DNA of 38,974 bases from Deltaproteobacteria bacterium (GTDB lineage Bacteria; Desulfobacterota; Desulfobacteria; Desulfobacterales; C00003060). The notes below the pieces were generated by a model. It did not search any database. It was given only the letters and a program-made list of their open reading frames with translations, and was not told where the DNA came from. The stretch spans positions 1-38,974 of the forward strand of contig JAFDFO010000003.1 of the NCBI GenBank assembly GCA_019309815.1, in the 5' to 3' direction. Within the stretch, counting starts at the first letter, position 1. The number at the start of each line of letters is the position of its first letter. The position numbers and the translations under genes were made by a program. Shown one piece after another: positions 19,734 to 38,974 of this stretch.

Positions 19734-20423
19734 ATGGTTTTTAAAGATGAAGTAGAACAGCGTTACCGTGGAGAAGCTGGAAAGGGGTATCACCAAACAA
19801 CACATTCCGTCCCTGATTTGTCTTATTCGTGGGTTGCACAGCTTCGGGCGAGCAAGATCAGTCCTTATGTGCATAGGAAGGATACAGTACTTGAATACGG
19901 TGTGGGGATCGGCTGGAACCTGGCACGGTTAGAATGCGAAAGGAGGCTCGGTTTTGATCTATCCGAGAGCGTAGAACCTGTCATTCAGAGCCATGGCATT
20001 GAATTCGTGAGAGATGTCAGTAACATTGCCGACAAATCCATAGACATAGTTATCTGCCACCATGTGCTTGAACACACCAGCCATCCACCGGAAATCCTGG
20101 AAGAGATAAAGCGCATGCTTTGCCACAAGGGTAAACTCCTGTTGTTTGTTCCATACGAAAAAGAAAGACGATTCCGTCATTACAATTCAAAGCAAGCTAA
20201 CCATCACCTTTATTCCTGGAATGTACAAACACTTGGCAACCTTGTCGAAAATATGGGGTTAAAGGTCGTGGAAGGAAAGCTCGGGAGATTTGGTTATGAC
20301 CGTTTTGCAGCTGTCTGGGCCAGTCGGTTTCGCCTGGGTGAATCCGGATTCAGAGTGGTGAGAAGAGCGGTTCATCTTCTAAAGCCTATGTTTGAGGTTC
20401 GAGTCGTTGCTGAGAGGGAATAA
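19734..20423 (+). CDS. Class I SAM-dependent methyltransferase
   Basis: VLEYGVGIGWNLARLECERRLGFDLSESV, IDIVICHHVLEHTSHPPEILEEIKRMLCHKGKLLLFVPYE. Confidence 0.85.
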   Translation: MVFKDEVEQRYRGEAGKGYHQTTHSVPDLSYSWVAQLRASKISPYVHRKDTVLEYGVGIGWNLARLECERRLGFDLSESVEPVIQSHGIEFVRDVSNIADKSIDIVICHHVLEHTSHPPEILEEIKRMLCHKGKLLLFVPYEKERRFRHYNSKQANHHLYSWNVQTLGNLVENMGLKVVEGKLGRFGYDRFAAVWASRFRLGESGFRVVRRAVHLLKPMFEVRVVAERE

Positions 20424-20756
20424 GGCCACTTACCCGGTAAAGCGGGCCCCTTGCCTGGTCTCTCCGAGCCGGTTTGACACCGGTGGTATGCGGCATGAAC
20501 CGTCGATGCAAATAGCTGTTATTGATGGATATTCTCATCCAGCAGGGTGTTTTTCAGGCTAACCGTTTGACGTTCCGTTTGGATACCTGTAAAAGGTCAC
20601 ATTTCCTCCGAATTTGTTGCTATGTCCTGACCACTGTGCATTCCTTCTATGAATTCCCTTGTCCCTTACCACACTTGATACGCGACGGGTCATTCCAGAA
20701 GGGTCGCCAATCGAGGTCCTTATGCGAAACCACATACTGATGACTGAGGAAAAACC

Positions 20757-22235
20757 ATGAAACGTGTCGTGTTGCTTTATCCATCGAACAAACTTGGGGG
20801 TTCAGTTCAACCGAGAGTTGAGTTGCCTTTAGGCCTTCTCAGCGTGGGCACACCGCTGGACAGGGCAGGGTATGACGTTAGGATCATAGATGAGAGGATA
20901 GACGAGCACTGGAGAGAAAGTCTTCTAGAAGAAATCAGAAAGGAGCCGATTTGCGTTGGGATAACCTCCATGACAGGGCCGCAGATACAAAGCGGGTTAG
21001 AGGCGTCGCGTTTTGTAAGACAGCATGGAAATATTCCGGTTGTGTGGGGAGGTATCCATGCCACGTTGCTGCCCGAACAAACACTGCAAAATGAAAATAT
21101 CGATATTGTTGTACAGAGAGAGGGGGAAGAAACCTTCTTTGAGCTAGTACAGGCACTGGAAAATGGCAAGGACCTAGCTCGGGTGAAAGGAATCTGGTAC
21201 AAGGAAGACGGAGAAACAAAAAACACGGGGCCAAGGCCTCTGATTAACTTGAACCAACAACCTCCGCTGTCATACCACCTGGTTGACATGAAGCAATACA
21301 TGGTCAACGTCTTCGGAGAGGGTCACATAAGCTTTGAGACAAGCAGGGGTTGTCCGTTTCAGTGTACTTATTGTTATAACTCCACGGTTTATAAAGGCAG
21401 ATGGAGGGGGTTGACGGTCGATGAGACGATAAGGCGAATCAAGTTACTCATAGAAGAGTATGGGGTGAAGGGCATATTGTTTTCTGATGATAATTTTTTC
21501 GGAAACAAGAAGAGGGCGCTGGAGATCCTGCGACGGATAGCAGAAGAAAACCTTGGAGTTCTGTTGTCCAAGATCGACGTTCATGTTTCGATGCTATCAA
21601 GGCTGACTGACAGCGAAATGCGCCTTATTAGGAGAAGCGGCTGTAAAATGGTGATGATGGGGATAGAATCAGGCTCGCCTAGAATGTTGAAAATAATGAA
21701 AAAGAGGATGAGGATTCCTGAGCTAATAGAAGTGAACAAAAGGTTAAAAAAATTCGATATCATGCCTCACTATTTTTTTATGATGGGTTTTCCTACGGAG
21801 ACCGAGGAAGATTTGGCCAAAACCATGTCGCTGAAAATGAGACTTTCATCTGACAACAGGCATGCGGTGCCGCGATTCAATATCTACACGCCTTTTCCTG
21901 GAACCGAGCTTTTCAACCTCTCAGTGAAAAATGGCCTTAAAGTTCCCCAGAAGCTGGAGGATTGGGTGTCATTCAATTATCGGACAGTAAATGACAGCGC
22001 TGTGTGGGTATCGGAGAGGATGAAGAAATTAATCCGTATGCTGCACTTTGCTACCCTGCTGGCAGAGCCGAATAACTTCATAAATTCTTACAAAAGGACA
22101 AGTTTTCCGGTAGCCCTCGCAGCAGCAATCTATTACCCCATCGCAAAAATGAGGGTGAAAAATTTGTACTATCAGTTTCCGATTGACCTAAAACTCGCAG
22201 AATTGTTGGGCGTCTATCCAAAACAAGGAGGGTAA
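20757..22235 (+). CDS. Radical SAM protein with N-terminal B12-binding-like domain (BchE/class B-like), paralog 1
   Basis: N-terminal Rossmann/B12-like region (LPLGLLSVGTPLDRAGYDVRIID...VVWGGIHATLLPEQTL) and radical SAM CX3CX2C motif SRGCPFQCTYCYNSTVYKGRWR. Confidence 0.92.
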   Translation: MKRVVLLYPSNKLGGSVQPRVELPLGLLSVGTPLDRAGYDVRIIDERIDEHWRESLLEEIRKEPICVGITSMTGPQIQSGLEASRFVRQHGNIPVVWGGIHATLLPEQTLQNENIDIVVQREGEETFFELVQALENGKDLARVKGIWYKEDGETKNTGPRPLINLNQQPPLSYHLVDMKQYMVNVFGEGHISFETSRGCPFQCTYCYNSTVYKGRWRGLTVDETIRRIKLLIEEYGVKGILFSDDNFFGNKKRALEILRRIAEENLGVLLSKIDVHVSMLSRLTDSEMRLIRRSGCKMVMMGIESGSPRMLKIMKKRMRIPELIEVNKRLKKFDIMPHYFFMMGFPTETEEDLAKTMSLKMRLSSDNRHAVPRFNIYTPFPGTELFNLSVKNGLKVPQKLEDWVSFNYRTVNDSAVWVSERMKKLIRMLHFATLLAEPNNFINSYKRTSFPVALAAAIYYPIAKMRVKNLYYQFPIDLKLAELLGVYPKQGG

Positions 22236-22239
22236 TGAA

Positions 22240-23727
22240 TTGAAGGATAAGGGGCACATTGTTCTTTTCACCCCCGCCGTGAGAATGGGAAAAGAGCAAC
22301 AAAGAAGGACCGGCATACCTTCCGGTTTGCTCGCCATAGCGACACCGCTAGACCTGGCAGGGTATACGATCAAGATAATCGACCAGAATTTTGAAGACAG
22401 ATGGAAGGATATGCTTCTCTCAGAACTGAAGAAGAGACCAATCTGCGTGGGCGTGTCGGCAAAGACCGGTCCTCAGATCAAATATGGGATCGAGGCATCG
22501 AGGATGGTCAAGCAATACGATACAATTCCAGTGGTCTGGGGAGGCGTCCATGCCAGTTTGGCTCCGGAACAGACACTCGCGAATGAGAACATTGATATCG
22601 TTGTTCAGGGAGAAGGGGATGAAACATTCTTTGAACTCGTTCAGGCGTTGGAAAAGGGCGAGCCTCTGAGCAAAGTCAGAGGAATCTGGTACAAAGAAAA
22701 TGGTGAAATCAAGAAGACCCAACCCAGACCGTTTATCGATTTGGAGAAGCAACCTTCGCCCTCATACCATCTCATAGACGTGAAAAAAGTCCTGGTAAGG
22801 AGTTTTGGTGAAGATCACCTCAGGTTTTCAAGTGCCAGAGGGTGCCCATACAGGTGTGGTTTCTGCTACAACACGACATTCTACAAAAGAAGATGGAGGG
22901 CCTTATCAGCTGAAAGAACATATGAAGAGATAAAGAAAATAAGGACCAAATTCGGGATCAGGGGTATTCGGTTCTCAGATGATCTCTTCTTTGGGGATGT
23001 AGAAAGGGTCAGAAAGCTCCTCACAAAGATTGTGGATGAAAAACTCGATGTCGTTGTCACAAAGCTAGACATACACGTGAACGAGCTTTCCAGACTGGAC
23101 GATGATTTTTTGAGACTCCTTGAAAGGGCTGGGGCTAAGGCACTCGTGGTGGGAGTGGAATCCGGCTCTCAGAGGATTCTGGATCTGATAAAGAAGGGAA
23201 TCAAGATTTCAGAGGTTATTGATTTCAACAAGAGGGTGGCGAAATTCAACCTGATCCCCAAATATTGCTTTATGATGGGATTTCCTACTGAGACGAAAGA
23301 AGATATTCGTGAGACCGTTGCCCTGATTTTTCGACTTTTGGAAGACAACAAAGAAGCCATAAAAGACATCAACATTTACACGCCGTATCCCGGCACGGAA
23401 CTGTTCCATTTATCTGTCAAGCACGGGTTTAAACCCCCGGAAAAGCTTGAAGGTTGGGTATCTTTTAACTGGCGTACTATCAACAGAAAGCGTACGCCCT
23501 GGATCACGAAGGAGAGGGAGCGGTTGTTAAGAATGCTCCATTGTTCTTCGCTATTCTTGGAGAAGAACTACTTCCTGGAGCCACAATGGCCCACAAACCC
23601 CTTGGTTGTCATGTTGGCCAGGCTTTATCACCCCATAGCCAAGAAAAGGGTTGAGAATCTGTATGATAAGTTTCCAATAGAGATTAAATTGGTGGAGTGG
23701 CTACGTCTGTATCCAAAGCAGGTTTGA
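22240..23727 (+). CDS. Radical SAM protein with N-terminal B12-binding-like domain, paralog 2
   Basis: Same architecture as the preceding gene (IPSGLLAIATPLDLAGYTIKIID...VVWGGVHASLAPEQTL; ARGCPYRCGFCYNTTFYKRRWR); TTG start 4 nt after the previous stop. Confidence 0.92.
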   Translation: MKDKGHIVLFTPAVRMGKEQQRRTGIPSGLLAIATPLDLAGYTIKIIDQNFEDRWKDMLLSELKKRPICVGVSAKTGPQIKYGIEASRMVKQYDTIPVVWGGVHASLAPEQTLANENIDIVVQGEGDETFFELVQALEKGEPLSKVRGIWYKENGEIKKTQPRPFIDLEKQPSPSYHLIDVKKVLVRSFGEDHLRFSSARGCPYRCGFCYNTTFYKRRWRALSAERTYEEIKKIRTKFGIRGIRFSDDLFFGDVERVRKLLTKIVDEKLDVVVTKLDIHVNELSRLDDDFLRLLERAGAKALVVGVESGSQRILDLIKKGIKISEVIDFNKRVAKFNLIPKYCFMMGFPTETKEDIRETVALIFRLLEDNKEAIKDINIYTPYPGTELFHLSVKHGFKPPEKLEGWVSFNWRTINRKRTPWITKERERLLRMLHCSSLFLEKNYFLEPQWPTNPLVVMLARLYHPIAKKRVENLYDKFPIEIKLVEWLRLYPKQV

Positions 23728-23866: not shown

Positions 23867-25003
23867 ATGGCAACACTGAATGAAAAGGTGAGATTGTTCA
23901 GAGGGCTGCTTACCGGTGAGACCGCCGAAGCAGGGCCGTTCTATGTCCTGGTGGACGTCACGCGTTCATGCAATCTCGCCTGTCTGGGATGTCGCTATCA
24001 TTCTCCTCACGTGAAGGTCCCGTCACCAGGTGACAGGAGCAAGAAGAACATCTCTTTCCATCTCTTCAGGGAACTGTGCAAGCAACTCAGGGCCATGGGT
24101 ACAGGGAGGTTAATTCTAACGGGAGAAGGGGAACCCTTTCTCCACCCTCGTCTCCTGGAAATGATTTCTACTGCCAAGAGCGTGGGACTTCACGTCACCT
24201 TGTTTACCAATGGTACGTTGCTTGACGAAGGCAAGGTACAATCGCTCATAGATTCTCAACTCGATGTCCTGACAGTGAGTCTGTGGGCTGGTTCACAAGA
24301 AGAATACGAACGAAACCACCCAGGCGCGGGGCCGGAGTACTTCAACACCATTGTTGATGCTCTCCAGCGTATGGCCCGTCTCAAGGCCGACCAAGCGAGT
24401 CATCTTCCCTCAGTTGTTATGCATCATCCTATATATCGCAACAACTTTGGCAGTATCCAAGCAATGGCTGACCTTGCTCAAGAAACGGGGTGCAATACGC
24501 TGTCTTTTTCTCCGCTCAGAACCCGGCGGGGGAAACTAGAGTCATTTGCTCTGACCCAGGATGAGACGAGACTCTTAAGCCTGAACTTGGCGGGGATCAA
24601 GAGGCGGCTGGATTCACTTGCCATAGGGCACAATATAGACAATACCATTTTGCGCTACCGGACGGGCGAAAAGGTGTGGGAAAAAGTGCCTTGTTACGTT
24701 GGCTGGGTCCAGGCTCATATCAAAGTGGATGGTACAGTCCTCCCGTGCAATTCATGCAGCTTGCCGATGGGCAATCTCAATGAGGACAGGTTGAGCGATA
24801 TATGGAATGGCCCTTCTCTGAAAAGGTTCCGCAGGCAGACGCTTACGAAAGAAGGCCTGGCACACGTGGGGTTGCACTGTGACTGTCATTTCTGTTGCCA
24901 TGTGGAGGACAACATGCGTGTTCACCGGATCTTTCGCTGGTTTTCGCCCTTTTTACCCGGCAAGAGAAACAGAAAAGCGTGGTTGCCTCTTGAGACATCG
25001 TAG
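23867..25003 (+). CDS. Radical SAM protein with SPASM-like C-terminal Cys cluster
   Basis: VDVTRSCNLACLGCRYHSPHVK (CX3CX2C); C-terminal HIKVDGTVLPCNSCSLPMGNLNEDRLSDIWNGPSLKRFRRQTL...HCDCHFCCH. Confidence 0.88.
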   Translation: MATLNEKVRLFRGLLTGETAEAGPFYVLVDVTRSCNLACLGCRYHSPHVKVPSPGDRSKKNISFHLFRELCKQLRAMGTGRLILTGEGEPFLHPRLLEMISTAKSVGLHVTLFTNGTLLDEGKVQSLIDSQLDVLTVSLWAGSQEEYERNHPGAGPEYFNTIVDALQRMARLKADQASHLPSVVMHHPIYRNNFGSIQAMADLAQETGCNTLSFSPLRTRRGKLESFALTQDETRLLSLNLAGIKRRLDSLAIGHNIDNTILRYRTGEKVWEKVPCYVGWVQAHIKVDGTVLPCNSCSLPMGNLNEDRLSDIWNGPSLKRFRRQTLTKEGLAHVGLHCDCHFCCHVEDNMRVHRIFRWFSPFLPGKRNRKAWLPLETS

Positions 25004-25086: not shown

Positions 25087-26703
25087 TTGTTTGGAAGCCG
25101 AATGAATCGCACATCAGGGGTTCGAATTGAAGAGCTTTGGTTGGGTACCCGCTTCCTCCTGGAGTTGCCGTTTTTCCTGCGACGTCCGGTGCAAAGGAAG
25201 GAAGCGGACAAATGTCTCCGACTCCGTTTTGAGAAAAGGCAGCCCCGGTTTCTGAACCTGGTGCGTGACACCATTTACAGCGCACCTGGGAGTCCTTATC
25301 GGAAACTTCTTGGCTGGGCGGGGTGCGAGGCCGGAGACCTGGAGAAGCTGGTCCATCACGAAGGTGTTGAAGGAGCACTCACAGAATTGTGCCGAGCAGG
25401 GGTCTATCTTACCGTGGATGAGTTCAAGGGCCGTTGCCCGATCGTTCGGGGCAGTCAAAAGCTCACAGTTCAACCCCATCTCTTTCACAACCCAACCCCA
25501 TCTCCCTCCATAGGCATTCGAACCAGCGGCAGTCGAAGCGCCGGTATTCCTGTACCGGTGGATTTCGCGTTTATCCGAAGCCGCTCAATAAACGCCTTGC
25601 TCGGCCTGTCAGCCCGAGGAGGAAATGAATGGCATCATGCCGTCTGGGGAATTCCGGGCGGCTCGGCAATGGTTCACCTGCTGGAATTCAGCGGGTTTGG
25701 GATCCACCCTGTGAAGTGGTTTTCGCACGTGGATCCGGCGACACCGGGACTACATCCGCGCTACCATTGGAGTGCCCTCACACTCCGTTGGGCAGGATTC
25801 CTGGGAGGCGTGTCCCTTCCCGGTCTGCAGTATGTTCCGGTCAGTGATCCTTTGCCGATATTGGACTGGTTTATCCAGGTTCTGCGCTCCGGCAAGGTGC
25901 CTCACCTTCTCACCTACATGAGTTCTGCTCTGCGTCTTTGCCGGGCAGCAGAGGAAATGGGTGTCGAAATTCCTGGGGCTCAATTCACGGTGTTGGGAGA
26001 GCCGGTCACAGAGATTGGTCTGTCCACAATACGGCGGACCGGAGCAGAGGCCGTTTCCAGATACGGCAGCGCCGAGTGTGGAACAATCGGGTATGGATGT
26101 CTCAGACCTGAAGCGCCCGATGAGGTGCATCTCCTACACGATCGCGTGGCCCTCGTTCAGGTAAAAGAAGAGAACAAGGATGCGGGAATCCCTTCGGGCG
26201 CGCTTTTCGTTTCTACGCTTGAGTCAGCCACACCGTTTATTCTGCTGAATGTTTCACTCGGGGATCAGGCGGTTATGGTAGAACGCGACTGCGGGTGTCG
26301 TCTCCAAGAACTCGGCTGGACAAGACACCTGCACTCAATCCGCAGCTATGAAAAACTCATTGCCGGAGGCATGTCGTTCTTAGATACGGACCTGGCCCTG
26401 GTGATGGAGGAGACCCTCCCGGAACGCTTCGGAGGTGCTCCGACGCACTATCAGTTGCTGGAAGACAGTGACGAGGGGGGACTCCAATGTTTTCGGCTTC
26501 TGGTGCATCCCGAGGTGGGGCCGGTCGAACCTGAGGCAGTCGTCGAGACATTCCTGACCGCCCTCAGTTCGGGCAATGGGGTTGAAAGGATGATGGGTAT
26601 GGTGTGTAAGGATGCTCAGCTCCTCACCGTGGAGCGTACCCCTCCTTTGACGACAAGTTCGGGCAAGATTCTCCATTTTCACCAGGCGCGCCAGGCACCT
26701 TGA
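25087..26703 (+). CDS. Adenylate-forming enzyme, coenzyme F390 synthetase/phenylacetate-CoA ligase-like
   Basis: IRTSGSRSAGIPVP (A3-like P-loop), SRYGSAECGTIGYGC (A5-like YGxxE), C-terminal TTSSGKILHFHQAR. Confidence 0.65.
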   Translation: MFGSRMNRTSGVRIEELWLGTRFLLELPFFLRRPVQRKEADKCLRLRFEKRQPRFLNLVRDTIYSAPGSPYRKLLGWAGCEAGDLEKLVHHEGVEGALTELCRAGVYLTVDEFKGRCPIVRGSQKLTVQPHLFHNPTPSPSIGIRTSGSRSAGIPVPVDFAFIRSRSINALLGLSARGGNEWHHAVWGIPGGSAMVHLLEFSGFGIHPVKWFSHVDPATPGLHPRYHWSALTLRWAGFLGGVSLPGLQYVPVSDPLPILDWFIQVLRSGKVPHLLTYMSSALRLCRAAEEMGVEIPGAQFTVLGEPVTEIGLSTIRRTGAEAVSRYGSAECGTIGYGCLRPEAPDEVHLLHDRVALVQVKEENKDAGIPSGALFVSTLESATPFILLNVSLGDQAVMVERDCGCRLQELGWTRHLHSIRSYEKLIAGGMSFLDTDLALVMEETLPERFGGAPTHYQLLEDSDEGGLQCFRLLVHPEVGPVEPEAVVETFLTALSSGNGVERMMGMVCKDAQLLTVERTPPLTTSSGKILHFHQARQAP

Positions 26704-26836: not shown

Positions 26837-28312
26837 GTGTCAGAGAGCAATCTAATCGAAAGAGCAAGAGAAATTAGAAGACAACTGAACACCGAACTCA
26901 AGGAGTTGCAACAACTGGGCTTGGAGATAGAGGATTATGAACAAAGAGGGAGATACATATACTTCTTTAAGAGCGGTTCACGAATAAAGTCGAAAGATGT
27001 GTTTTCATCACACATCTCTGACGTACAGGAGATAAATCTATACGTACACATACCGTTCTGCATAAACAGGTGTACATTCTGTTGTTGTTTCAGCACCGGT
27101 AAACAGCCGGAATCAATAGTAGAGGAGTACATCAATACACTAAAGAAAGAAGTGGAGCTACTGATAAGGACCTCCAGATTCGAGAATGCTGCCATAAGAT
27201 ACATCTATTTTGGCGGTGGAACCCCCACTTATCTCAGCGCCAAACAACTCGAAGATCTCATTGGATTTCTAAAGAGCAGACTGAACATTCTTCCCGACGC
27301 AGGTTTCACATGCGAAACGAGTCCTGAAACCACGGTTGGGAGTGCCGGGAAAGAGCGACTTCAAGCCTTACTGGAAAACGGTGTCAACCGGTTAAGTATG
27401 GGCATACAGTCCTTCGACGACAATATCCTCAAGCGGATTGGCAGAAAGCACAGTGCAAAGACAGCGATATCTGCATATAGAAATTCCCATGAGGCAGGTT
27501 TCACAAACATGAACATCGATCTCCTGTTCGGCTTACCCGAACAAACACTTGAAAAATGGGAAGCCGACCTGAAGATTGCCACTGACCTAAATCCTGGTTG
27601 GATTAGTTCATACCGTCTTCGGATAGAAAATCCAAAGATGCATGGAGCATTCATAAGAGAAGCCGATCTTTTTCCGGACAAAGAAACCGTCTTGTTGATG
27701 AATATCATGTCTATTGAAAAGCTCACCGATTCAGGATACCAACAGGCACAGGCCCCTCATACTTTTCTTCTGCCATCTAAACTACAACTCACCCCGCGCC
27801 ATTACCTGGGCGAAGAAGAACTTGGTCTTGGCGTATCGGCACGGTCCTATCTCGACGGTGTTCGATATGAGAACTTTCATAATCTAAAAAGATACATGGT
27901 GTCCGTCGACAAAGGACAGTTGGCAATTTCATTTGCAGGGAAATATTCCAGGAGGCAACAGATGGAAAGAGAGACTGTCATGATGTTCAGGGGGCCAAAG
28001 GGAGTCAATAGAGGTGATTTCAATACCAGATTTGGGCTTGACGTTGACAGCGTTCTTGGTGAACGCCTTCAAAGACTGAAAAAGGCAGGGATGATCACCG
28101 ACGATGGAGAAACCCTTAGATTGTCAAATAAAGGTTTGCTCTTTGCTGTTGAGGTACTCAAACAGTTTTACTCTCAAGACGCTGTTAGCAGGTTCAAGAA
28201 TATGATTTACAACAACGAATCGTTAAAAGGTCTCTTCCTCGACAAGAAGTATAGTAGATCCGGTGAAGTCATCGCAAATATCGTTAAGACAGTGGCTGGT
28301 TATGCAAAATGA
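26837..28312 (+). CDS. HemN/HemW-like (coproporphyrinogen oxidase-type) radical SAM protein
   Basis: LYVHIPFCINRCTFCCCFSTG (CX3CX2C), YIYFGGGTPTYLSAKQLEDLI, GVNRLSMGIQSFDDNILKRIGRKHSAKTAISAYRNSHEAGFTNMNIDLLFGLPEQTLEKWEADL; GTG start. Confidence 0.9.
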   Translation: MSESNLIERAREIRRQLNTELKELQQLGLEIEDYEQRGRYIYFFKSGSRIKSKDVFSSHISDVQEINLYVHIPFCINRCTFCCCFSTGKQPESIVEEYINTLKKEVELLIRTSRFENAAIRYIYFGGGTPTYLSAKQLEDLIGFLKSRLNILPDAGFTCETSPETTVGSAGKERLQALLENGVNRLSMGIQSFDDNILKRIGRKHSAKTAISAYRNSHEAGFTNMNIDLLFGLPEQTLEKWEADLKIATDLNPGWISSYRLRIENPKMHGAFIREADLFPDKETVLLMNIMSIEKLTDSGYQQAQAPHTFLLPSKLQLTPRHYLGEEELGLGVSARSYLDGVRYENFHNLKRYMVSVDKGQLAISFAGKYSRRQQMERETVMMFRGPKGVNRGDFNTRFGLDVDSVLGERLQRLKKAGMITDDGETLRLSNKGLLFAVEVLKQFYSQDAVSRFKNMIYNNESLKGLFLDKKYSRSGEVIANIVKTVAGYAK

Positions 28313-28489: not shown

Positions 28490-29305
28490 GTGGTTCTGAT
28501 CATTACAGGACATCAACGCTCTGGTACCACATTGCTCCTGGAACTGTGCAACAGTCATCCCGACATCTCACTGACTATGGAATTTGGAAATTTTTGTTCC
28601 ATTGGTAAGCCTTATATAGTGTACATGTCACGGATGATTAAGCGGTGGTTGGGTATCGGGATAAGATATTGGCCTTTAGTCGTAACACAAGCCGGGGTCT
28701 TTACATCCATTGTCAAGAGGCAGAAGCGAATGACGATTGCACGAAACCATGCCTTTGTCCTGCATTATCTTTTCAAGATGTTGAGACATTGGCAGAGACG
28801 TGTAAATGTCCAGGCCATTGAAGCAACCCTCAAGAATATCTTTCCTGGAAAGCGCATTGTTGGTGATAAGTACCCTGATTACGTTTTTGAACTGAGCGAA
28901 CTGGCAGGCGCTGATAATCTGTCTATCCTGGTTATATGTCGTGATTGCAGGGACGTAACCAGCTCTGCTTTAAGGACGGTGTCCACAGCATGGCGAAACA
29001 TGCCGGTGCTCAGGAAGAAGATGGATACAGCCGAAAAAATTGCAGAACGTTGGGTGCAAGCTATTGAACTGATGGATCGCCACAGGGACAAATTATGCGT
29101 TATTCACTACGAGGACCTGATTAAAGAGAAGGAGCGGGAACTCAAAGCGCTTGGGAACTGGTTAGGCGTGGACCCTGCGGGTTTTAATGCAGAGGTGATC
29201 CGTGACAATACGATAGGAAAATACAAAAATGGTCTTTCAGATATAGACCTGATGACGGTTATGGACGTTGCCGGGCCGACAATGGCTAAAATGGGTTATC
29301 TGTAG
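28490..29305 (+). CDS. Sulfotransferase family protein, PAPS-type
   Basis: IITGHQRSGTTLLLELCNSHPDISL (5'-phosphosulfate-binding loop), LSILVICRDCRDVTSSALRTVSTAWR, LCVIHYEDLIKEKERELKALGNWLGVD; GTG start. Confidence 0.85.
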   Translation: MVLIITGHQRSGTTLLLELCNSHPDISLTMEFGNFCSIGKPYIVYMSRMIKRWLGIGIRYWPLVVTQAGVFTSIVKRQKRMTIARNHAFVLHYLFKMLRHWQRRVNVQAIEATLKNIFPGKRIVGDKYPDYVFELSELAGADNLSILVICRDCRDVTSSALRTVSTAWRNMPVLRKKMDTAEKIAERWVQAIELMDRHRDKLCVIHYEDLIKEKERELKALGNWLGVDPAGFNAEVIRDNTIGKYKNGLSDIDLMTVMDVAGPTMAKMGYL

Positions 29306-29352: not shown

Positions 29353-30495
29353 GTGACGAGCATGAATGATGGCTTGACATTGAGTGGGATGATTCCAGGT
29401 TGGACGTTTCCCTCAGGCGAAAAAGCAGAATATACGATAGGGGTTCTGCCGGGAGAGGGGATTGGTCCGGAGATTATCGAGGTGTCCCTGAACGTGCTGG
29501 ATGCCGTAACTCGAGGGACCCCCGCCCAGTTCGAAGTTAAAGAAGGGGGGGACATTGGACTGCTGGCCGAACAGAAGACGGGTCAGATTCTGACCAAGGA
29601 AGTTGTCTCCTTTGTCGAATCCGTGTTTTCAGCAGGGGGCGCAGTGTTGTGTGGGCCTGGCGGCGGACGTTTCGTCTATGAGCTTCGCTCCGAGTTCGAT
29701 CTCTTTTGCAAGGTCACCCCAATACGGCCTCTGTCCCCGTTGCTGGACGTGGGCGTCATCAAGACGGACAACTTGAACGACGTGGACGTCCTGATAGTGC
29801 GGGAGAACGCGGGGGGCATTTATTTCGGGCGATGGGAAGAAACGCAGGAGACGGATGAGTTAAAGGCCTCACACACGTTTGAGTATCGGGAGAGCGAGGT
29901 GGAAAGGATCCTTGGCGTTGCTGTCGCACTTGCCCGTGGGCGGCGTCGGCGTCTGACCCTGGTACTTAAGCCTGACGGTATACCATCCATCAGTCGCTTG
30001 TGGATTGAAGTATTCAAACGAGTGGTAAAGGATTCGGGTCTTGAGTCCCAGATCTTGCAGGTAGACTATGCTGCCTATCATCTCATCCATGCAGCTCAGG
30101 ATTTTGATGTCATTGTCTGTCCCAACCTTTTCGGCGATATTCTGTCTGACTTAGGCGGTTTGTTGATGGGTTCGCGCGGCATGTGTTTCTCGGGAAACTT
30201 CGGAAAGGAAGGGAGAGCAGTCTATCAAACCGGGCACGGCGCGGCTTATGATCTATCCGGCCGCGACCAGGCCAACCCGATTGGACAGCTCTGCTCCCTG
30301 GCCATGTTGCTTCGCGTGAGTTTCGGCCAGCAGGGGCTTGCACAGCGCATTGAGGCTGCCATGGGAAAGGTCCTTCGAGAAGGGTGGAGGACACCGGATA
30401 TCGTATCGCCAGGTTGCAGAGTCATCGGGACCCGGGAACTGGGCGATCGAATCGTTGAAGCAATTGAAGCGCTCAACGAAGCAAGGGCCGCATGA
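29353..30495 (+). CDS. Isocitrate/isopropylmalate dehydrogenase family enzyme (divergent)
   Basis: IGVLPGEGIGPEIIEVSLNVLDAV, VDVLIVRENAGGIYFGRWEE, DFDVIVCPNLFGDILSDLGGLLMGSRGM, TGHGAAYDLSGRDQANPIGQLCSLAMLLR. Confidence 0.88.
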   Translation: MTSMNDGLTLSGMIPGWTFPSGEKAEYTIGVLPGEGIGPEIIEVSLNVLDAVTRGTPAQFEVKEGGDIGLLAEQKTGQILTKEVVSFVESVFSAGGAVLCGPGGGRFVYELRSEFDLFCKVTPIRPLSPLLDVGVIKTDNLNDVDVLIVRENAGGIYFGRWEETQETDELKASHTFEYRESEVERILGVAVALARGRRRRLTLVLKPDGIPSISRLWIEVFKRVVKDSGLESQILQVDYAAYHLIHAAQDFDVIVCPNLFGDILSDLGGLLMGSRGMCFSGNFGKEGRAVYQTGHGAAYDLSGRDQANPIGQLCSLAMLLRVSFGQQGLAQRIEAAMGKVLREGWRTPDIVSPGCRVIGTRELGDRIVEAIEALNEARAA

Positions 30496-32525
30496 AACCC
30501 GTTCTGCTGTTAGTGGATCTGCAAAAGGATTTCCTGTCCAGGCCGGCCCTGGAGCCTCCGGCTGAGGAACTCATCCCACGAGTGGGGCAGTTGCTCAAAG
30601 GCTGCCGGGAGTTAGGCGTTCCCGTTATTCATGCCCATACAGTGGTTCGGGCTGACGGGGAAGACCGGATGCCGCACTGGAAGAGCGCAGGGATTTGGGA
30701 GTGTATTGCAGGCAGACCGGGTTCAGCCCCCCCCGAGGAATTGCAACCACGAGACCAGGAGCCGGTTTTTGAAAAGCAGTTCTACAGTGCCTTTGCTGAC
30801 AGGTCCCTTCACGCCACGCTGGAAGAGTTAGACGCAGATACGCTCATTGTAGCGGGGGTCTACCTGCACGGATGCGTGCGCTCCACGGTTATGGATGCCT
30901 ACGAACGGGGCTTCGAGATCTGGGTAGCAGAAGACGCCACAGCTTCCACCGAAGCCGTTCATGCAAGAGTAACCAAGGACTACCTCGCAGATCGCATGGC
31001 CACCTTCCTCTCCTCTGACACGATACTGGCCAGACTCAAAAGGAATGGAACGGTTCTCCGAACCCCTGGGGTGAGGGTCCATCCGGTAGGCAATATTGGA
31101 GGGGACTGGTTGGGGGCATCCAGCCATGGCCTGTGGGAACAGAGAAACCCGTCGAAATGGGACGAAATTCTGGGCCTGATACCGCTGGCGTCACGGGAAG
31201 AAGTAGCCGGTGCCGCCGCTGCTTCCAGGAGTGCACAGGTCGACTGGCGTCGGATTTCGCCAAGGTCCAGGAGCGAACTGCTTATTGCCTGGGCGGCGAA
31301 GTTGGCAGGGCGGGAAGCCGATTTCGCGGGTCTCATGGCACTCGAGCTGGGCAAACCGATCGGTGTCGGTCACGATGAGGTACGTTTTGCGGTGGAATTG
31401 CTCCACGAAACGGCCTCCATCGTGGCCAGAGAGCAGGCTCTGACGGGCTACGACCTAAATAGGGCCAAAACCCGTTCTTGTCCGGTGGGCGTCATTGGAG
31501 TTATTACTCCTTGGAATAACCCGATTGCTATTCCTGTTGGAAAGCTGGGGGCGGCCATTGTCTTTGGCAACGGTGTTGTGTGGAAAGCAGCCCTTCAGGC
31601 TCCCCGCACCACAAGACTGGTCCTTGAGACGCTGTTTGAGGCTGGACCGCCCAATGGACTGGTGAACCTCCTTTTCGGGGGTGTGAACACGGCTAAGCAG
31701 CTGATTCTTCAGCCCGAGGTTCAAGGGATATCACTGACCGGGTCTTGTGCAACGGGCAGGGAAGTGGCAAGGCTGTGCGCTCGTTTTCCGAAGCCCTTTC
31801 AGGCGGAGCTGGGAGGAAACAACGCTGCCATTGTCATGCCGGACGCAGACGTGGAAAGGGCCGCGCAGGAGTTAGCGCTGGCGGCTTTCAGCTTTTCGGG
31901 CCAACGCTGCACTGCAACACGGCGGTTCATCGTGCATCGAGACATACGTAAGGGTTTCATCGAGGCATTGGTCGCTTCCATAAACGCTTTGAAGTTGGGC
32001 GATCCCCTGGATGTTGAGACCCAGATGGGGCCGGTCATCTCCCGGACAAAGCAGACAAGGCTCGAAGACCTGGTGAAAGCTGCTGTTTCCCATGACGCAA
32101 GGATTCTGTGTGGGGGGAGAATTCCGGCCGAGTGGGACTTTGGATGCTGGTTTGAACCCACACTTCTGGACACCCCGGAACCGACCCTTGGCGTGGTTCA
32201 GGAAGAGACCTTCGGTCCGATCGCCGTACTTCAGACGGCCAAGGACTTGGATGATGCCTTGTCATTGCTCAACGGGGTACCTCACGGTCTTGTCGCCAGC
32301 CTCTATTCAGAAGACCCTGCCTGTCAAAGACGTTTCCTGGAAGGGGCAGAAGTCGGGATTCTGAAACTTAACCAGTCCACTTTGGGGGCAGCACCCGGGG
32401 CTCCTTTCGGGGGCTGGAAGGCCTCTGGCGTGGGCCCCCCCGAGCACGGTGTGTGGGATCAGATATTTTACACCCGACCGCAGGCTTTGTATGGACAGTC
32501 TCTGGATGAAGACGCACTGCCGTGA
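30492..32525 (+). CDS. Fusion protein: N-terminal isochorismatase-like cysteine hydrolase + C-terminal aldehyde dehydrogenase
   Basis: 677 aa. N-terminal PVLLLVDLQKDFL ... VFEKQFYSAF ... LIVAGVYLHGCVRSTVMDAYERGFEIWVAEDA. C-terminal GVIGVITPWNNPIAIPVGKLGAAIVFGNGVVWKAA, GISLTGSCATGREVAR, FQAELGGNNAAIVMPDADVE, FSGQRCTATRRFIVHR, VQEETFGPIAVLQ. Confidence 0.93.
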   Translation: MKPVLLLVDLQKDFLSRPALEPPAEELIPRVGQLLKGCRELGVPVIHAHTVVRADGEDRMPHWKSAGIWECIAGRPGSAPPEELQPRDQEPVFEKQFYSAFADRSLHATLEELDADTLIVAGVYLHGCVRSTVMDAYERGFEIWVAEDATASTEAVHARVTKDYLADRMATFLSSDTILARLKRNGTVLRTPGVRVHPVGNIGGDWLGASSHGLWEQRNPSKWDEILGLIPLASREEVAGAAAASRSAQVDWRRISPRSRSELLIAWAAKLAGREADFAGLMALELGKPIGVGHDEVRFAVELLHETASIVAREQALTGYDLNRAKTRSCPVGVIGVITPWNNPIAIPVGKLGAAIVFGNGVVWKAALQAPRTTRLVLETLFEAGPPNGLVNLLFGGVNTAKQLILQPEVQGISLTGSCATGREVARLCARFPKPFQAELGGNNAAIVMPDADVERAAQELALAAFSFSGQRCTATRRFIVHRDIRKGFIEALVASINALKLGDPLDVETQMGPVISRTKQTRLEDLVKAAVSHDARILCGGRIPAEWDFGCWFEPTLLDTPEPTLGVVQEETFGPIAVLQTAKDLDDALSLLNGVPHGLVASLYSEDPACQRRFLEGAEVGILKLNQSTLGAAPGAPFGGWKASGVGPPEHGVWDQIFYTRPQALYGQSLDEDALP

Positions 32526-32583: not shown

Positions 32584-33585
32584 TTGATGGATTCCTTTCA
32601 AGGTCCAACAGTCTCGATTATCATACCGGTATACAATGGAGGGGAGAAGTTTCGGCGTTGTTTGTCAAGTGTTGCGGCATGTACCCCTCCTCCGGAAGAA
32701 GTCATCGTGGTGGCAGATGGCGACACCGACGGCTCCTGGCGTGTGGCAGAGGAATACGGGACTCAGGTTCTCAGAATGCCTACCCCTGGGGGACCTGCCC
32801 GAGCACGAAATCTGGGCGCGGGAGAGGCAAAGGGGGACATCCTTTTCTTTGTTGATGCAGACGTGACCATCCCGCAAGATGCCATAAGCCAAGTCGCGGG
32901 GGCATTTCAGGACGATTCCGAGTTATCTGCTATTTTCGGGTCTTATGATGACGCGCCGTTTGAGACAAATTTTTTGTCACAGTACAAGAATCTTTTTCAC
33001 CACTATGTCCACCAGGGTGCTAAGGAAGATGCCTCCACCTTCTGGGCAGCTTGCGGGGCAATTCGCCGCGGGGTGTTTTCTGCAATGGGAGGCTTTGACG
33101 AGGCATACCGCCGACCCTCCATTGAAGACATAGAGTTGGGTTACAGGTTCAGAAGGGCTGGCCACAAAATTCGTCTCCTGAAGGGACTCAAAGTGAAGCA
33201 CCTGAAGCGCTGGGGTATTGTTTCCCTTTTGCGAGCCGACTTCTTCTACCGGGCCTTGCCCTGGACGGATTTGATTTTGCGTGAAAGCGAGTTCATCGAC
33301 GACCTGAACGTAACAATCTCCAACCGCGTAAGTGTCATATTTACTTACGTATTTTGCCTGGCCTTGTTGGGGTCGTGGTGTATGCCATGGCTTCTTCCTG
33401 TTGCCCTTCTCGCGATGATAGGGCTGCTTGTGATTCATTGGGATTTCTATCGTTTCTTCAAAGATAAACACGGCTGGGCATTTGCGGCAAAAACAATCCC
33501 CTGGCACTGGTTTTATTTCTTCTACGGCGGACTGGCTTTTGGTATAGGTTCTGCGAAGTTTCACTTTGAGAGACTAAGATCCTGA
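32584..33585 (+). CDS. Glycosyltransferase family 2 with C-terminal membrane segments
   Basis: VSIIIPVYNGGEKFRRCLSSVAACTPPPEEVIVVADGDTDGS, FFVDADVTIPQDAI, GGFDEAYRRPSIEDIELGYRFRRAG; start may be 32587. Confidence 0.92.
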   Translation: MMDSFQGPTVSIIIPVYNGGEKFRRCLSSVAACTPPPEEVIVVADGDTDGSWRVAEEYGTQVLRMPTPGGPARARNLGAGEAKGDILFFVDADVTIPQDAISQVAGAFQDDSELSAIFGSYDDAPFETNFLSQYKNLFHHYVHQGAKEDASTFWAACGAIRRGVFSAMGGFDEAYRRPSIEDIELGYRFRRAGHKIRLLKGLKVKHLKRWGIVSLLRADFFYRALPWTDLILRESEFIDDLNVTISNRVSVIFTYVFCLALLGSWCMPWLLPVALLAMIGLLVIHWDFYRFFKDKHGWAFAAKTIPWHWFYFFYGGLAFGIGSAKFHFERLRS

Positions 33586-33589
33586 TGGC

Positions 33590-35398
33590 ATGCCGGACAT
33601 CATCTCGGACCAGCACCAACCGAAACTGGCCATGAGTAACGAATCTGTTGTTATCATAGGAGGCGGCCCTGCAGGTCTGTCAGCAGCCCATGAGTGCATT
33701 AAGGGGGGCATCAAGCCCATTGTGCTCGAAAGGGCTGACAAGGTCGGAGGGATTTCACGCACAGAGACCTACAAAGGCTACTATTTCGATATTGGGGGGC
33801 ACCGTTTCTATACAAAGATTGAGGAGATTGACCGGCTGTGGCACGAAATGCTCGGCGACGATTTTCTCAAGGTCCGTCGGATGTCCCGCATTTATTATCA
33901 GGGCCGTTTCTTCAACTATCCCCTTGGGTTTGCCAATGCCCTGATGAACCTGGGGTTGGTTGAAACCTCTCTGATCCTGTTGAGCTATCTTAAGGCGCAG
34001 GTCTGGTCCCACCCGGAAGAAGTAAACTTCGAGCAGTGGGTGTGTAATCGTTTTGGCCAGCGTCTCTATCAGACGTTTTTTCGGACATACACGGAGAAGG
34101 TGTGGGGAACCCCTTGCCATAAGATTCAGGCCGACTGGGCGGCGCAGCGCATCAAAGGATTGTCACTTATTGTGGCGGTGTCTAATGCGCTTTTCGGGGG
34201 CCAGAAAGCGAAGACCTTGATCAGTGAGTTTGACTACCCATTAAGGGGTCCGGGAATGATGTGGCAGCGTTTCCAGGATGTGGTGGGGGCAAATGGAGGG
34301 GAGGTCCGACTCAACACAGACGCTACTGGCCTGAGCCATGAAAATGGCCGAATCGTGAAGGTGAATTACGTTGACAACGGCGAAACAGTAACCATCCCGG
34401 CTGACCAAGTCATTGCCAGTATTCCCGTCACCAGGCTTGTAGCCTTGCTTGATCCGAAAGCACCGAAGCATGTCCTCGAGGCGGCTTCCAACCTTTCCTA
34501 TCGGGCATTTGTTCTTGTGGGACTTATTGTTGACCGGGAAGACCTTTTTCCGGACCAGTGGATATATGTACACAGTCCCGATGTGAGGGTTGGGCGCATT
34601 CAGAACCTCAAGAACTGGAGTGCAGCCATGGTCCCCGATCCTAAGAAGACAAGTGTGGCAATGGAGTACTTCTGTAACGAAGATGACGAAACCTGGACGA
34701 TGCCCGATAGTGAACTGATAGACCTGGCATCTCAGGAATTGTCCAAGCTGGGACTGGCTGACACTGATGATATCATGGACGGGTTTGTAATACGCCAGCC
34801 AAAGGCATACCCGGTCTATGATGATGCATACAAAGAACATCTCATGGTCGTTCGGGATTACCTCGCGACCTTCGACAATCTCCAAACCGTAGGCCGAAAT
34901 GGCATGCACCGATACAATAATATGGACCATTCGATGCTCACGGGAATGCTTGCCGCCCGAAACTTGTCTGGCGCAAATCACGACCTGTGGGAGATAGGTG
35001 AACAGGACGAGTATCTTGAAGCAGATAAAAAGGCGAAAGCCCAACGGCTCGTTCCTGAGAAAATACTCACAAAGACATTTGCCAGGATAGACAAGCTGGC
35101 ATTTGCAACAGCCATAGGAGGCGTATCAGGCCTGTTCATGTTTCTTGCGACCATTTGGCTGGTCATGAAGGGGGGCGAAATGGTCGGCCCCACTCTCAGG
35201 CTTCTCTCCCAGTATTTTGTTGGCTATTCCGTGACCGTAAGAGGGGCCTTTGTTGCTTTTGGTTACACGTTCTTCTGCGGCTTCTTGTTTGGCTGGCTGT
35301 TTGCCTATCTTCGGAACCTCTTTCTTGCCTTCTACGTCTATAGTGCAAAGAAGAAAGCTGAGTTGCTGTCTCTCAGAGATTTTTTTGATAACCTGTAG
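33590..35398 (+). CDS. FAD-dependent oxidoreductase (UDP-galactopyranose mutase/amine oxidase-like) with C-terminal membrane domain
   Basis: VVIIGGGPAGLSAAHECIKGGIKPIVLERADKVGGISRTETYKGYYFDIGGHRFYTK, FFRTYTEKVWGTPCHKIQADWAAQRIKGL; C-terminal hydrophobic segments GGVSGLFMFLATIWLVMKGGEMVGPTLRLLSQYFVGYSV. Confidence 0.88.
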   Translation: MPDIISDQHQPKLAMSNESVVIIGGGPAGLSAAHECIKGGIKPIVLERADKVGGISRTETYKGYYFDIGGHRFYTKIEEIDRLWHEMLGDDFLKVRRMSRIYYQGRFFNYPLGFANALMNLGLVETSLILLSYLKAQVWSHPEEVNFEQWVCNRFGQRLYQTFFRTYTEKVWGTPCHKIQADWAAQRIKGLSLIVAVSNALFGGQKAKTLISEFDYPLRGPGMMWQRFQDVVGANGGEVRLNTDATGLSHENGRIVKVNYVDNGETVTIPADQVIASIPVTRLVALLDPKAPKHVLEAASNLSYRAFVLVGLIVDREDLFPDQWIYVHSPDVRVGRIQNLKNWSAAMVPDPKKTSVAMEYFCNEDDETWTMPDSELIDLASQELSKLGLADTDDIMDGFVIRQPKAYPVYDDAYKEHLMVVRDYLATFDNLQTVGRNGMHRYNNMDHSMLTGMLAARNLSGANHDLWEIGEQDEYLEADKKAKAQRLVPEKILTKTFARIDKLAFATAIGGVSGLFMFLATIWLVMKGGEMVGPTLRLLSQYFVGYSVTVRGAFVAFGYTFFCGFLFGWLFAYLRNLFLAFYVYSAKKKAELLSLRDFFDNL

Positions 35399-35427
35399 TT
35401 GATTTACCGACGTCAGGAGATTTTATC

Positions 35428-35748
35428 GTGAAAACAAAGAATGAAAACCAGACGACGGAAGAAGAAAGGCTGTTTCGTGGGGTCCTCTGGCTGAACGCTA
35501 AGGCTCTCGGGCTTGTTCTCGGCTTGCTGTGCGGCCTTGCGGTATTTGTCGCGACAAACTGGCTTGTGATCAAAGGAGGGGATCCGGTGGGCCCGCACCT
35601 GAGACTCTTGAGTCAGTACTTCATTGGCTACAGGGTTTCTTTTCTTGGCAGCCTCATTGGGTTTGTTTATGGTTTTGCGGTGGGGACCTTGAGCGGAGCA
35701 CTCATTGGGTGGATTTATAACGCGGTTGCCTCGTTCAGGAAATCCTAG
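35428..35748 (+). CDS. Small membrane protein homologous to the C-terminal domain of the upstream flavoprotein
   Basis: 106 aa; LCGLAVFVATNWLVIKGGDPVGPHLRLLSQYFIGYRVSFLGSLIGFVYGF aligns without gaps to the flavoprotein C-terminus. Confidence 0.8.
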   Translation: MKTKNENQTTEEERLFRGVLWLNAKALGLVLGLLCGLAVFVATNWLVIKGGDPVGPHLRLLSQYFIGYRVSFLGSLIGFVYGFAVGTLSGALIGWIYNAVASFRKS

Positions 35749-35788
35749 CTCTTTCCATGATGTACCTCATTCTCCCCTGATAAAAACG

Positions 35789-36598
35789 ATGTCCGACAGT
35801 TATACCAGCCATTATTGGGACACGATTGTTGAAAGACCGGGCGGCAGGGACCATGAAGATTTATGGAGAGCCCACCTGCAAGGGATTTACAGGGAGTTAA
35901 TGGACAGATGGACAGTCGGTTCCCCGGATGGACTTATCCTCAAGACCGATCTATATGACGAAGCCGTAAGCAAGTATAATCTTCTACCTTTGTGCAGGGG
36001 GAAGTGTGGGCGTGTCATTGGAACAGATGTTTCTTTTGAAGTTGCGGCGGCAGCCAAAGAAAGGATGACCAGAACATGGGACGGTTGGCATAATGCTGTG
36101 TGCGCTGACGTCAGGCGGTTACCGTTCATGTCTGAGTCATTTGACGCTGTCATCTCTAATTCAACGCTGGATCACTTTTCACATAAGGAGAGTATCCTGG
36201 CGAGCCTTAGAGATATTCACAGATTGTTGAAGCCCGGAGGATCACTGCTCATTACCCTTGACAACCCATCAAATCCAGTCATCTTCTTAAGAAATGCGGT
36301 TCCTTACAGGTTATTGAAGGGCTCCCGACTTATTCCGTTCTACATGGGGGTCACTTTGTCAGAATCTCAACTGGTCCGCATTTTGGAAGTGTGTGGTTTT
36401 GAAGTTCATGAGACCATGGCCATTGTCCACAGCCCCCGTATTCTCGCCATTTGGACGGGACACATCCTGAACAGGACGGGGAACAAAAAGATAAAGCAAT
36501 ATGCGAGACAGGTTCTTAGGATATGTGAACGGCTGGAAAAACTCCCGACGAGATATCTGACCGGGTATTATGTTGCCGCAATAGCTACGAAGAGATAA
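35789..36598 (+). CDS. Class I SAM-dependent methyltransferase
   Basis: LLPLCRGKCGRVIGTDVSFEVAAAAKERM, CADVRRLPFMSESFDAVISNSTLDHFSHKESILASLRDIHRLLKPGGSLLITLDNPSNP; start at MSDSYTSHYW. Confidence 0.88.
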   Translation: MSDSYTSHYWDTIVERPGGRDHEDLWRAHLQGIYRELMDRWTVGSPDGLILKTDLYDEAVSKYNLLPLCRGKCGRVIGTDVSFEVAAAAKERMTRTWDGWHNAVCADVRRLPFMSESFDAVISNSTLDHFSHKESILASLRDIHRLLKPGGSLLITLDNPSNPVIFLRNAVPYRLLKGSRLIPFYMGVTLSESQLVRILEVCGFEVHETMAIVHSPRILAIWTGHILNRTGNKKIKQYARQVLRICERLEKLPTRYLTGYYVAAIATKR

Positions 36599-36668
36599 GT
36601 TGCATTCTCCTCGCCCCTAAACGCGAACCCCTCAAGATCGCCCAGAAGTCTCATCGAGTCATGCAACA

Positions 36669-36698
36669 GGCGGCTTTCATTTTGGTGTGAAAGCCGTC
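36669..36698. terminator. Stem-loop between the methyltransferase and sulfotransferase genes
   Basis: cggctttca (36671-36679) and tgaaagccg (36688-36696) are exact reverse complements, extendable to ggcggctttca/tgaaagccgtc with a G-T pair. No U-tract. Confidence 0.4.
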
Positions 36699-36743
36699 TT
36701 TGGGGCTATCTGTCAACACATAAGAAGTAAAATACAGTTGCCA

Positions 36744-37604
36744 ATGATCAGGAAATACGCAAAAGGGACCCTGCCGAACCTGATAATAATTGGGGCCCAA
36801 AAATGCGGTACAACAAGTCTGCATTACTATTTGGGCCTTCATCCCCAAATATCGATGTCCAGAGAAAAAGAGCTGGAATTCTTCATGGAAGACCGTACCT
36901 GGCACAAGGGGATCGAATGGTACAAGTCACATTTCATGACCAGGGCGAAGGTTCACGGGGAGTCGTCGCCTAACTACACAGCTTATCCTAGATGGGAGGG
37001 CGTGCCGGAGAAAATGCATTCTGTCATACCGGATACCAAATTGATCTATATCCTTCGAGATCCCATTGATCGAATGGTTTCTCAGTATGTTCAATACCTG
37101 TCGGTAGGATTGGACAACAGGGCAGTAGAAATCGCTTTCAAACCTCTTAATAATGACAACTACTATGTTCGCAGGAGCAGATACTTTATGCAACTGCAGC
37201 AATATCTAAAATATTTTCCGAGCTCCAATATTCTGATAATGACTGCGGAGGATTTGCTCAATGAGCGTCGAAAAACATTGGAGAAGGTATTTGCATTCTT
37301 AAATGTTGATGAAACCTTCTATTCCCCAAAGTTTCTCAACCTCAAGCATGGGTCTGTCGGAAGAAGGCAGAAGAACCGGATTGGTTTGCTTCTGAAGCAG
37401 TTTGCCGAAAGCAATATTGCAAAGATATTTTCAACTGACGTGCGAATGAAGATTGGGGGAGTGATAGAATTGGCGTTCTCGACTGAAATTGCCAGACCCG
37501 TATTGGGTGAGAGCTTACGGGCCGAACTGATTAGTTTTTTCAAAGAGGATACAGATCCTTTGAAAGAATTCACCGGCTCCGATTTTGCGGCCTGGTGTGT
37601 ATAG
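36744..37604 (+). CDS. Sulfotransferase domain protein
   Basis: LIIIGAQKCGTTSLHYYLGLHPQISMSREKELEFF, KLIYILRDPIDRMVSQYVQYL. The ORF track starts at a GTG (36687) inside a stem-loop; ATG at 36744 is offered as an alternative. Confidence 0.88.
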   Translation: MIRKYAKGTLPNLIIIGAQKCGTTSLHYYLGLHPQISMSREKELEFFMEDRTWHKGIEWYKSHFMTRAKVHGESSPNYTAYPRWEGVPEKMHSVIPDTKLIYILRDPIDRMVSQYVQYLSVGLDNRAVEIAFKPLNNDNYYVRRSRYFMQLQQYLKYFPSSNILIMTAEDLLNERRKTLEKVFAFLNVDETFYSPKFLNLKHGSVGRRQKNRIGLLLKQFAESNIAKIFSTDVRMKIGGVIELAFSTEIARPVLGESLRAELISFFKEDTDPLKEFTGSDFAAWCV

Positions 37605-37755
37605 CTCCTGCAAATTAGTCATAAATGAAAAGGCGCGGGGCAGTCTTTCAGCGAAAAGAACAACTCGGATGTTTTGAAACCCATGGAAACGGTGAAGTGT
37701 CCTCAGGAATCCTCCCCTGTGTCCGGCCAATGACAGAACAACCAATCAAATTAGC

Positions 37756-38974
37756 ATGAACAGAGTGAATCAACCTTCTCAGCACCTTGTTCGCAACATG
37801 ATGACAGGAAGTATCCGCATCTTCTTTGCTGAGGTGCTGATAATTCCTGTCGGATTCATAACAGCGGTCTTTCTTGCCCGCCAACTCGGCCCGGTTAACT
37901 TTGGCCTATTTGCCATAGCCTTAAGGCTTGTCACATGGGTCGAGTGGACCAGCCTGACCGTCTTTTACAGCGCCACAGTCAAGTTTGTTAGCGAGGAAGA
38001 TGATTGGCGGGCGGTTGGGACTACGGTAGTTCGGCTGCATCTTGTAGTAGGTGTTGGTATTGCAGCTTTGCTATGGATAACGGCTTCGCCTTTAGCCCGT
38101 GCATTCAATGAACCGGCCATGGCCACCTACCTGAAGCTTTTTGCCATAGATATTCCGATTTTTAGCCTGTTCTCCGTACATAGCAGCATCTTGGTTGGAA
38201 GGGGTTTGTTCAAGGAGCGGGCCTGGACTCGTTTTGTTCGTGGAGATGGGCCTGTCTGTTAACGGCGCGATTATAGGAGTCATTGGTGCCTCCATGGTTG
38301 GATTGATAATGAGCAGATTTTTTATCAGACCCCCTGTCTTTTCCGGAGCTACATTCCCAGTGCGGCGTCTGTTGGGCTTCTCAGCTCCAGTTTTCATGTC
38401 GTCGCTGAGTTTGCGAATGCTCAGGCTGGACGTAATCGCCCTAAAGGTGCTGGGAGCAACGGCTGCCCAGGTGGGCTTCTATAGTGCGGGACAGAGCCTG
38501 TCCATTCATACTAGTCTGCTTTCCGGGGCACTCTCTCCACCTTTGCTGTCCACTTTGAGCCGCTTGATTAGACAAGGAGATGAGTCCAAGGCCAAAGATA
38601 TTGGGCGGACCGCGATGCGTTTGGTGATTTGGCTGCTGCCGTTTGCTGCGATGACGGCTGGGGCAGCTACGGAGATAGTTGACCTTGTTTTCGGCAAGGA
38701 ATTCGTGTCTGCCGGTCCAATTTTGGCCTATTTGATCTTTGCAGCCGTGGGGTTTATCGGTATCACCATGGCAAGGGCCATCATCCTTGCTATAGGGAGG
38801 CCCGGCTGGACTTTCCTGGTGACCGGTCCGATGTTCCCAATAGCCGTCATTGGTTATCTGATCCTCATACCATGGATGGGTGGGGTTGGAGCAGCAATTG
38901 TAACGACTTGTGCCACCTGTTTGGCAGCGGTTGCCTCATTTCTGGCTGTCTACAAGCTTTGGGGAATCCTGCCG
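37756..38974 (+). pseudogene. Oligosaccharide flippase (Wzx/polysaccharide biosynthesis protein), frame disrupted at about 38220-38246 and running off the window
   Basis: Frame 1 (37756-38262): FFAEVLIIPVGFITAVFLARQLGPVNFGLFAIALRLVTWVEWT...LVGRGLFKERA then stop. A different frame is open from about 38228 to the window end: LVLFVEMGLSVNGAIIGVIGASMVGLIMSRFF...LLGFSAPVFMSSLSLRMLRLDVIALKVLGATAAQVGFYSAGQSL... Pseudogene versus sequencing error is unresolved. Confidence 0.75.

Follow-up and report, generated by a model that had tools for sequence, protein, structure and literature searches.

The locus studied here raises the question of which of its genes belong together. The window, that is, the whole stretch of 38,974 nucleotides that was analysed, is one entire contig (numbered 1-38974) of a 2.88 Mb metagenome-assembled genome (MAG) in 416 contigs, and so offers no sequence beyond its end for the extension that an earlier note proposed. 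That note, made from the letters and a list of open reading frames (ORFs), had described its last 19 kb or so as a candidate cluster uniting four radical S-adenosylmethionine (SAM) enzymes, sulfotransferases and surface-glycan genes. Two of these genes were found to form a real, rare unit: a dehydrogenase of the LeuB superfamily (29353-30495) and the gene that follows it (30492-32525), which encodes a fusion of an Isochorismatase-fold cysteine hydrolase with an aldehyde dehydrogenase (ALDH). Our preferred reading, given a probability of about one half, is that a mosaic surface-glycan or glycolipid cluster acquired this conserved but sporadic two-enzyme module (29.35-32.53 kb), which would make a non-amino carboxylic acid for activation by a ligase.

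The fusion protein was searched against 85,462 species genomes. Four close relatives were returned, in MAGs of Planctomycetales, Rhodothermia, Verrucomicrobia and Akkermansiaceae, and the dehydrogenase lay directly upstream of the fusion in all four. Searches of group genome samples gave eight further module loci, so that the dehydrogenase and the fusion, or a split or ALDH-only form of it, are adjacent or close in 12 genomes besides that of the window, which belong to Planctomycetota, Verrucomicrobiota and Rhodothermia (loci L105, L064, L065, L099, L100, L101, L068, L069, L070, L021, L071 and L104; about 10 kb fetched per side where the contig permits). With the window included, the hydrolase and the ALDH are one protein at 11 of 13 loci; they are two genes in L021, and the hydrolase is missing from L071. 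In L099 the two core genes point away from each other and are separated by a PhyH-like gene. By comparison, the dehydrogenase was absent, within the flanks covered (mostly up to 10 kb), from all 13 control loci found by ALDH or hydrolase similarity alone (L023-L031, L066, L067, L102 and L103). Since the pair recurs at 12 loci against none of 13 controls, it is clear that the core pair is a real unit, and chance is ruled out for it.

The core pair is also rare, being present in about 1-2% or less of the sampled genomes. Strong matches were seen in 3 of 171 and 5 of 395 genomes in the Planctomycetota samples, in 4 of 242 genomes of one Verrucomicrobia order and in 2 of 252 of the Rhodothermia class, some of them without the module. 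The fusion was not found in 21 congeners of the source organism, and no plasmid record covered 80% of it. The source organism probably belongs to another phylum than the other carriers. Two ALDH-only relatives from the same phylum, L066 and L067, were considered as module members and rejected, there being no dehydrogenase nearby. In L066 (4627-13377) the related ALDH (37%) lies in a polysaccharide cluster with NeuB-like, short-chain dehydrogenase/reductase (SDR), transketolase-like and ATP-binding cassette (ABC) export genes.

The dehydrogenase was assigned by Pfam, alignment and tree. Twelve module dehydrogenases were compared, all but the L021 copy, which a stop interrupts. They group in a single clade (support 100/100), on a branch of 2.34 from the LeuB-type paralogues; mean identity is 46% among themselves and 35% to those paralogues. 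Another LeuB-family gene is present in all 10 carrier genomes checked. Planctomycetota and Verrucomicrobiota sequences interleave in the tree, as expected for horizontal transfer. The window protein scores 245 bits with Iso_dh, 232 bits with the leuB equivalog (cut-off 353 bits), and falls under all NCBIfam cut-offs. It shares the fold and the catalytic Tyr, Lys and Asp, retained throughout the module dehydrogenases, with LeuB and its relatives, the isocitrate, homoisocitrate and tartrate dehydrogenases. Unlike LeuB, however, the module enzymes stand in a separate clade, lack the LeuB loop for side-chain recognition, and carry K-x-[TNSV]-P in 12 of 12 cases (KVTP in the window) in place of the NLRP motif, the arginine of which is kept in the LeuB-type paralogues. 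We take this arginine to contact the malate part of the substrate in structures of 3-isopropylmalate dehydrogenase. Since the arginine and the loop are lost and the catalytic residues kept, these changes point to an altered substrate, which may lack a second carboxylate. If our reading is right, this substrate class would be new to the LeuB superfamily.

Both halves of the fusion, identified by Pfam, keep their catalytic residues. In the hydrolase half the Asp/Lys/Cys triad is conserved among the module loci, L101 included, and its cysteine presumably speaks for amide hydrolysis and against an isochorismatase. The triad is that of N-carbamoylsarcosine amidase, nicotinamidase and biuret hydrolase, from which the module hydrolase differs in being fused to an aldehyde dehydrogenase; it resembles many cysteine hydrolases of this fold, with no clear nearest function. 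The ALDH half (Aldedh) conserves the catalytic Cys and the general-base Glu, with the motifs AELGGNN and GQRCT.

A carboxylate-activating enzyme is present at nine of the 12 other module loci. Non-ribosomal peptide synthetase (NRPS) adenylation proteins occur in L064, L068, L069, L099 and L104, PaaK-like ligases near the module in two Verrucomicrobia loci (L021 and L071) as in the window, and L105 and L101 have a protein that by eye resembles ATP-grasp enzymes. The Asp by which amino-acid-specific adenylation domains bind the amino group is replaced by Gly in L104, a change suggesting that the acid activated there is not an amino acid; by eye, this position is also not Asp in L068 and L069. 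The divergent, putatively adenylate-forming ligase of the window (25087-26703) gave no Pfam, NCBIfam or PDB match as a single sequence. A profile of five sequences, the ligase and four relatives, matched PaaK-like 6siw (E 4e-20) and AjiA1 6wuq (E 2e-19), bearing out the F390/PaaK-like assignment made before. These natural-product ligases are its top profile matches; it differs from them in gene context and in being too divergent for Pfam and NCBIfam. A homologue adjoins the module in L071, from Akkermansiaceae. The suggestion that an unusual small moiety is made and activated thus probably holds, as the dehydrogenase, the fusion-type protein and a PaaK-like ligase recur together at the two Verrucomicrobia loci, and the dehydrogenase and fusion in ten more genomes, mostly with an activating enzyme.

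Two further observations concern the activating enzymes. In two Planctomycetota genomes, a methyltransferase shared by both and the ATP-grasp-like protein stand next to the module (L101, about 5880-7590; L105, 15753-17515). Among ligase relatives of the same order as the source organism (L050-L054), some adjoin radical SAM genes, several are fragments and none has the module; short ORFs matching parts of the ligase in L052 (1297-1890), L053 (9897-10493) and L054 (10012-10551) are possibly decayed copies.

An oxygenase is the other frequent neighbour, since a PhyH-like or a Rieske protein was found at nine or ten of the 12 other module loci: PhyH-like in L068, L069, L071, L099, L100 and L104, with a remnant in L021, and Rieske in L064, L101 and L105. 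The sole NCBIfam match of the L105 Rieske protein was SdmA (85 bits, cut-off 600). In bacterial sterol C-4 demethylation, the SdmA Rieske oxygenase acts with the NADP-dependent reductase SdmB (PMC10202945). There a group is oxidised and a hydroxy-acid is then oxidatively decarboxylated, as is proposed for the module; the likeness is an analogy only, and the module would use a LeuB-type enzyme where Sdm uses an SDR. By eye, a transposase-like (integrase core) ORF adjoins the PhyH-like gene at the Verrucomicrobia module locus L068 (3933-4526).

In the window, radical SAM genes stand upstream of the module. The HemN-type protein (26837-28312; 491 residues) shares the Radical_SAM and HemN_C domains and the motif C-x3-C-x2-C-x-C with HemN, HemW, HutW and the STM4012 family; it differs in having a long branch of its own (1.86) and in its length, and scores under the STM4012 and HutW cut-offs and just above that of HemW (208.2 against 205.4 bits). 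HemN-type proteins also occur in L064 and L101. As these and the window protein separate in the tree, the HemN-like protein was not supported as a conserved module member. The remaining three are B12-binding protein A (20757-22235), BchE/HpnJ/PhpK-like and under all NCBIfam cut-offs shown, its tandem paralogue B (22240-23727; Pfam/NCBIfam, 53% identity to A) and a radical SAM/SPASM protein (23867-25003) that reached no family cut-off.

These neighbours can be arranged in a possible pathway, the step order, substrate and acceptor of which we infer. In other genomes the PhyH-like or Rieske oxygenase would supply an oxidised precursor, for which one or more radical SAM enzymes may substitute in the window. 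The dehydrogenase would oxidise, and probably decarboxylate, a hydroxy-acid with one carboxylate fewer than malate-type substrates, which have two. From the aldehyde so formed the ALDH half would make a carboxylic acid; the hydrolase half would cleave an amide. The PaaK-like ligase, or elsewhere the NRPS adenylation domain or the ATP-grasp-like protein, would activate the non-amino acid, which would then be joined to a glycan, lipid or peptide. Sulfation, assembly and export of the conjugate would fall to the sulfotransferases, glycosyltransferase, flavoprotein and flippase.

A wider proposal is made only tentatively: that this is an undescribed cross-phylum module in which oxidative decarboxylation gives a new activated non-amino acid block, interchangeable for NRPS, PaaK-like and ATP-grasp enzymes, with radical SAM chemistry replacing the oxygenase here and a sulfated surface glycan as the destination. 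The enzyme families are already known; the arrangement and the dehydrogenase clade appear to be undescribed, in agreement with the earlier failure to recognise a known pathway, since neither was found in the open papers searched; MIBiG and antiSMASH were outside the scope, so that a known cluster remains conceivable. If the proposal is true, the enzyme pair would mark a directly searchable family of unrecognised biosynthetic clusters in hard-to-culture bacteria, and the swap of oxygenase and radical SAM enzymes around a common core would offer a testable case of one pathway in an aerobic and an anaerobic form. The recurrence of the pair, usually near an acid-activating enzyme, points to a so far undescribed way of making a small acid for the decoration of surface sugars or peptides.

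Several points weigh against a biosynthetic module of this kind. Its substrate and product are predictions from sequence context, and all carriers whose records carry a title are MAGs. The PhyH assignment was made from a conserved HxD...H pattern and a weak PDB profile match (E 0.35), and a single-sequence fold of the protein, made with no alignment, had a pLDDT (predicted confidence score) of 34. The L071 ligase match is just 32% over about 150 residues, the ATP-grasp-like protein had no Pfam support, and the window HemN-like protein lies outside the subfamily of its L064 and L101 counterparts. No recognised activating enzyme was found in L100, and neither an oxygenase nor an activating enzyme is in reach in L065, which is cut by the contig end, or L070. 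Given these three loci, a catabolic or free-standing role of the module is possible. The pair could then be a small catabolic cassette (amide hydrolysis, aldehyde oxidation and oxidative decarboxylation of a hydroxy-acid) that lies by chance within a glycan cluster. The best models for the ALDH half, ketoglutarate-semialdehyde, dioxovalerate and betaine-aldehyde dehydrogenases, all matched below the cut-offs shown, would suit such a role; cysteine hydrolases with this fold also frequently act as catabolic amidases. We consider it unlikely, however, in view of the NRPS, PaaK-like or ATP-grasp-like enzymes at nine of the 12 other loci, an ABC transporter homologue common to three loci and a family 28 glycosyltransferase common to two.

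It is also doubtful that the entire 19 kb is a dedicated pathway in which the four radical SAM enzymes, ligase, dehydrogenase, fusion and sulfotransferases yield one sulfated glycolipid or glycan. All genes do share a strand, most gaps between them are short, and a ligase homologue (32%) with two adjoining radical SAM genes is found in L051, from the same taxonomic order. However, the B12 pair, the SPASM protein, the sulfotransferases, the glycosyltransferase, the flavoprotein and the second methyltransferase had no homologue in the 12 other module loci as fetched. The whole block was therefore rejected as a conserved unit, contrary to the earlier note, and the B12 pair, sulfotransferases and glycan genes appear to be locus-specific. 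The neighbourhood comparison that the note had proposed thus upheld the dehydrogenase-fusion pair, in 12 genomes, and not the full set, the HemN-like protein having only distant counterparts in two. Within this taxonomic order, the closest homologues of the B12 pair that were found (33-34%) adjoin what by eye is an ectoine-type gene set, not a glycan cluster; in two genomes of one genus three B12 radical SAM genes stand in a row beside such a set (L110, 9197-13383; L111, 6340-10505). Gene GC content (G+C) is 0.44-0.58 across the cluster against 0.50-0.53 in the housekeeping half of the window, a spread which suggests a mosaic. A mosaic would also fit a chance juxtaposition in a gene-collecting glycan island, with radical SAM proteins that are orphan or housekeeping-like, as the HemW score might imply; sulfotransferases and flippases are common in such islands. 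This explanation is refuted for the core pair by the comparison with the control loci, and for the locus as a whole we hold it very unlikely. The acquisition of the module by a mosaic glycan cluster stays our preferred reading.

The first half of the window is housekeeping (metG, PSP1, holB, tol-pal, ruvB and a SAM hydroxide adenosyltransferase), where the gene order metG-PSP1-holB and tol-pal hints at a Desulfobacterota-like lineage. All family-supported genes from 19,725 onwards are on the plus strand; the Pfam and NCBIfam scans covered plus-strand genes, minus-strand ORFs within the cluster being treated as shadows. These scans agreed with nearly all the domains listed in the earlier note. 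The dehydrogenase and fusion genes overlap by 4 bp and the remaining gaps between 20.7 and 32.6 kb are 4 to 177 bp, so that a single operon across this interval is plausible. Upstream of it lies MT1 (19725-20423), a class I SAM methyltransferase (Methyltransf_23, Pfam 59.5 bits), which more probably starts at the in-frame ATG at 19734. Sulfotransferase 1 (28490-29305; Sulfotransfer_3 by Pfam) precedes the dehydrogenase.

Downstream of the fusion are the family 2 glycosyltransferase (32584-33585; domain scan) and an FAD-dependent, amine-oxidase-like flavoprotein with a C-terminal membrane segment (33590-35398; NCBIfam). The flavoprotein had been called UDP-galactopyranose mutase-like; this was rejected in the strict sense, since it scored 38.6 bits with that model (cut-off 303.75) and 674 bits with the PRK07208 family. 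Further on lie MT2 (35705-36598), a second class I SAM methyltransferase with a real start probably 3' of the overlap with the preceding ORF, sulfotransferase 2 (36687-37604; Sulfotransfer_1 by Pfam) and a polysaccharide flippase cut by the contig end (37756-38974; Polysacc_synt_3 by Pfam). The flippase family stood as first called, but a single frameshift near 38.2 kb interrupts the gene, which may reflect a sequencing error, an assembly error or a pseudogene. Finally, the 106-residue small membrane protein between the flavoprotein and MT2 (35428-35748), recognised by eye from its translation, is similar to the membrane segment at the C-terminus of the former, as if that segment were duplicated.

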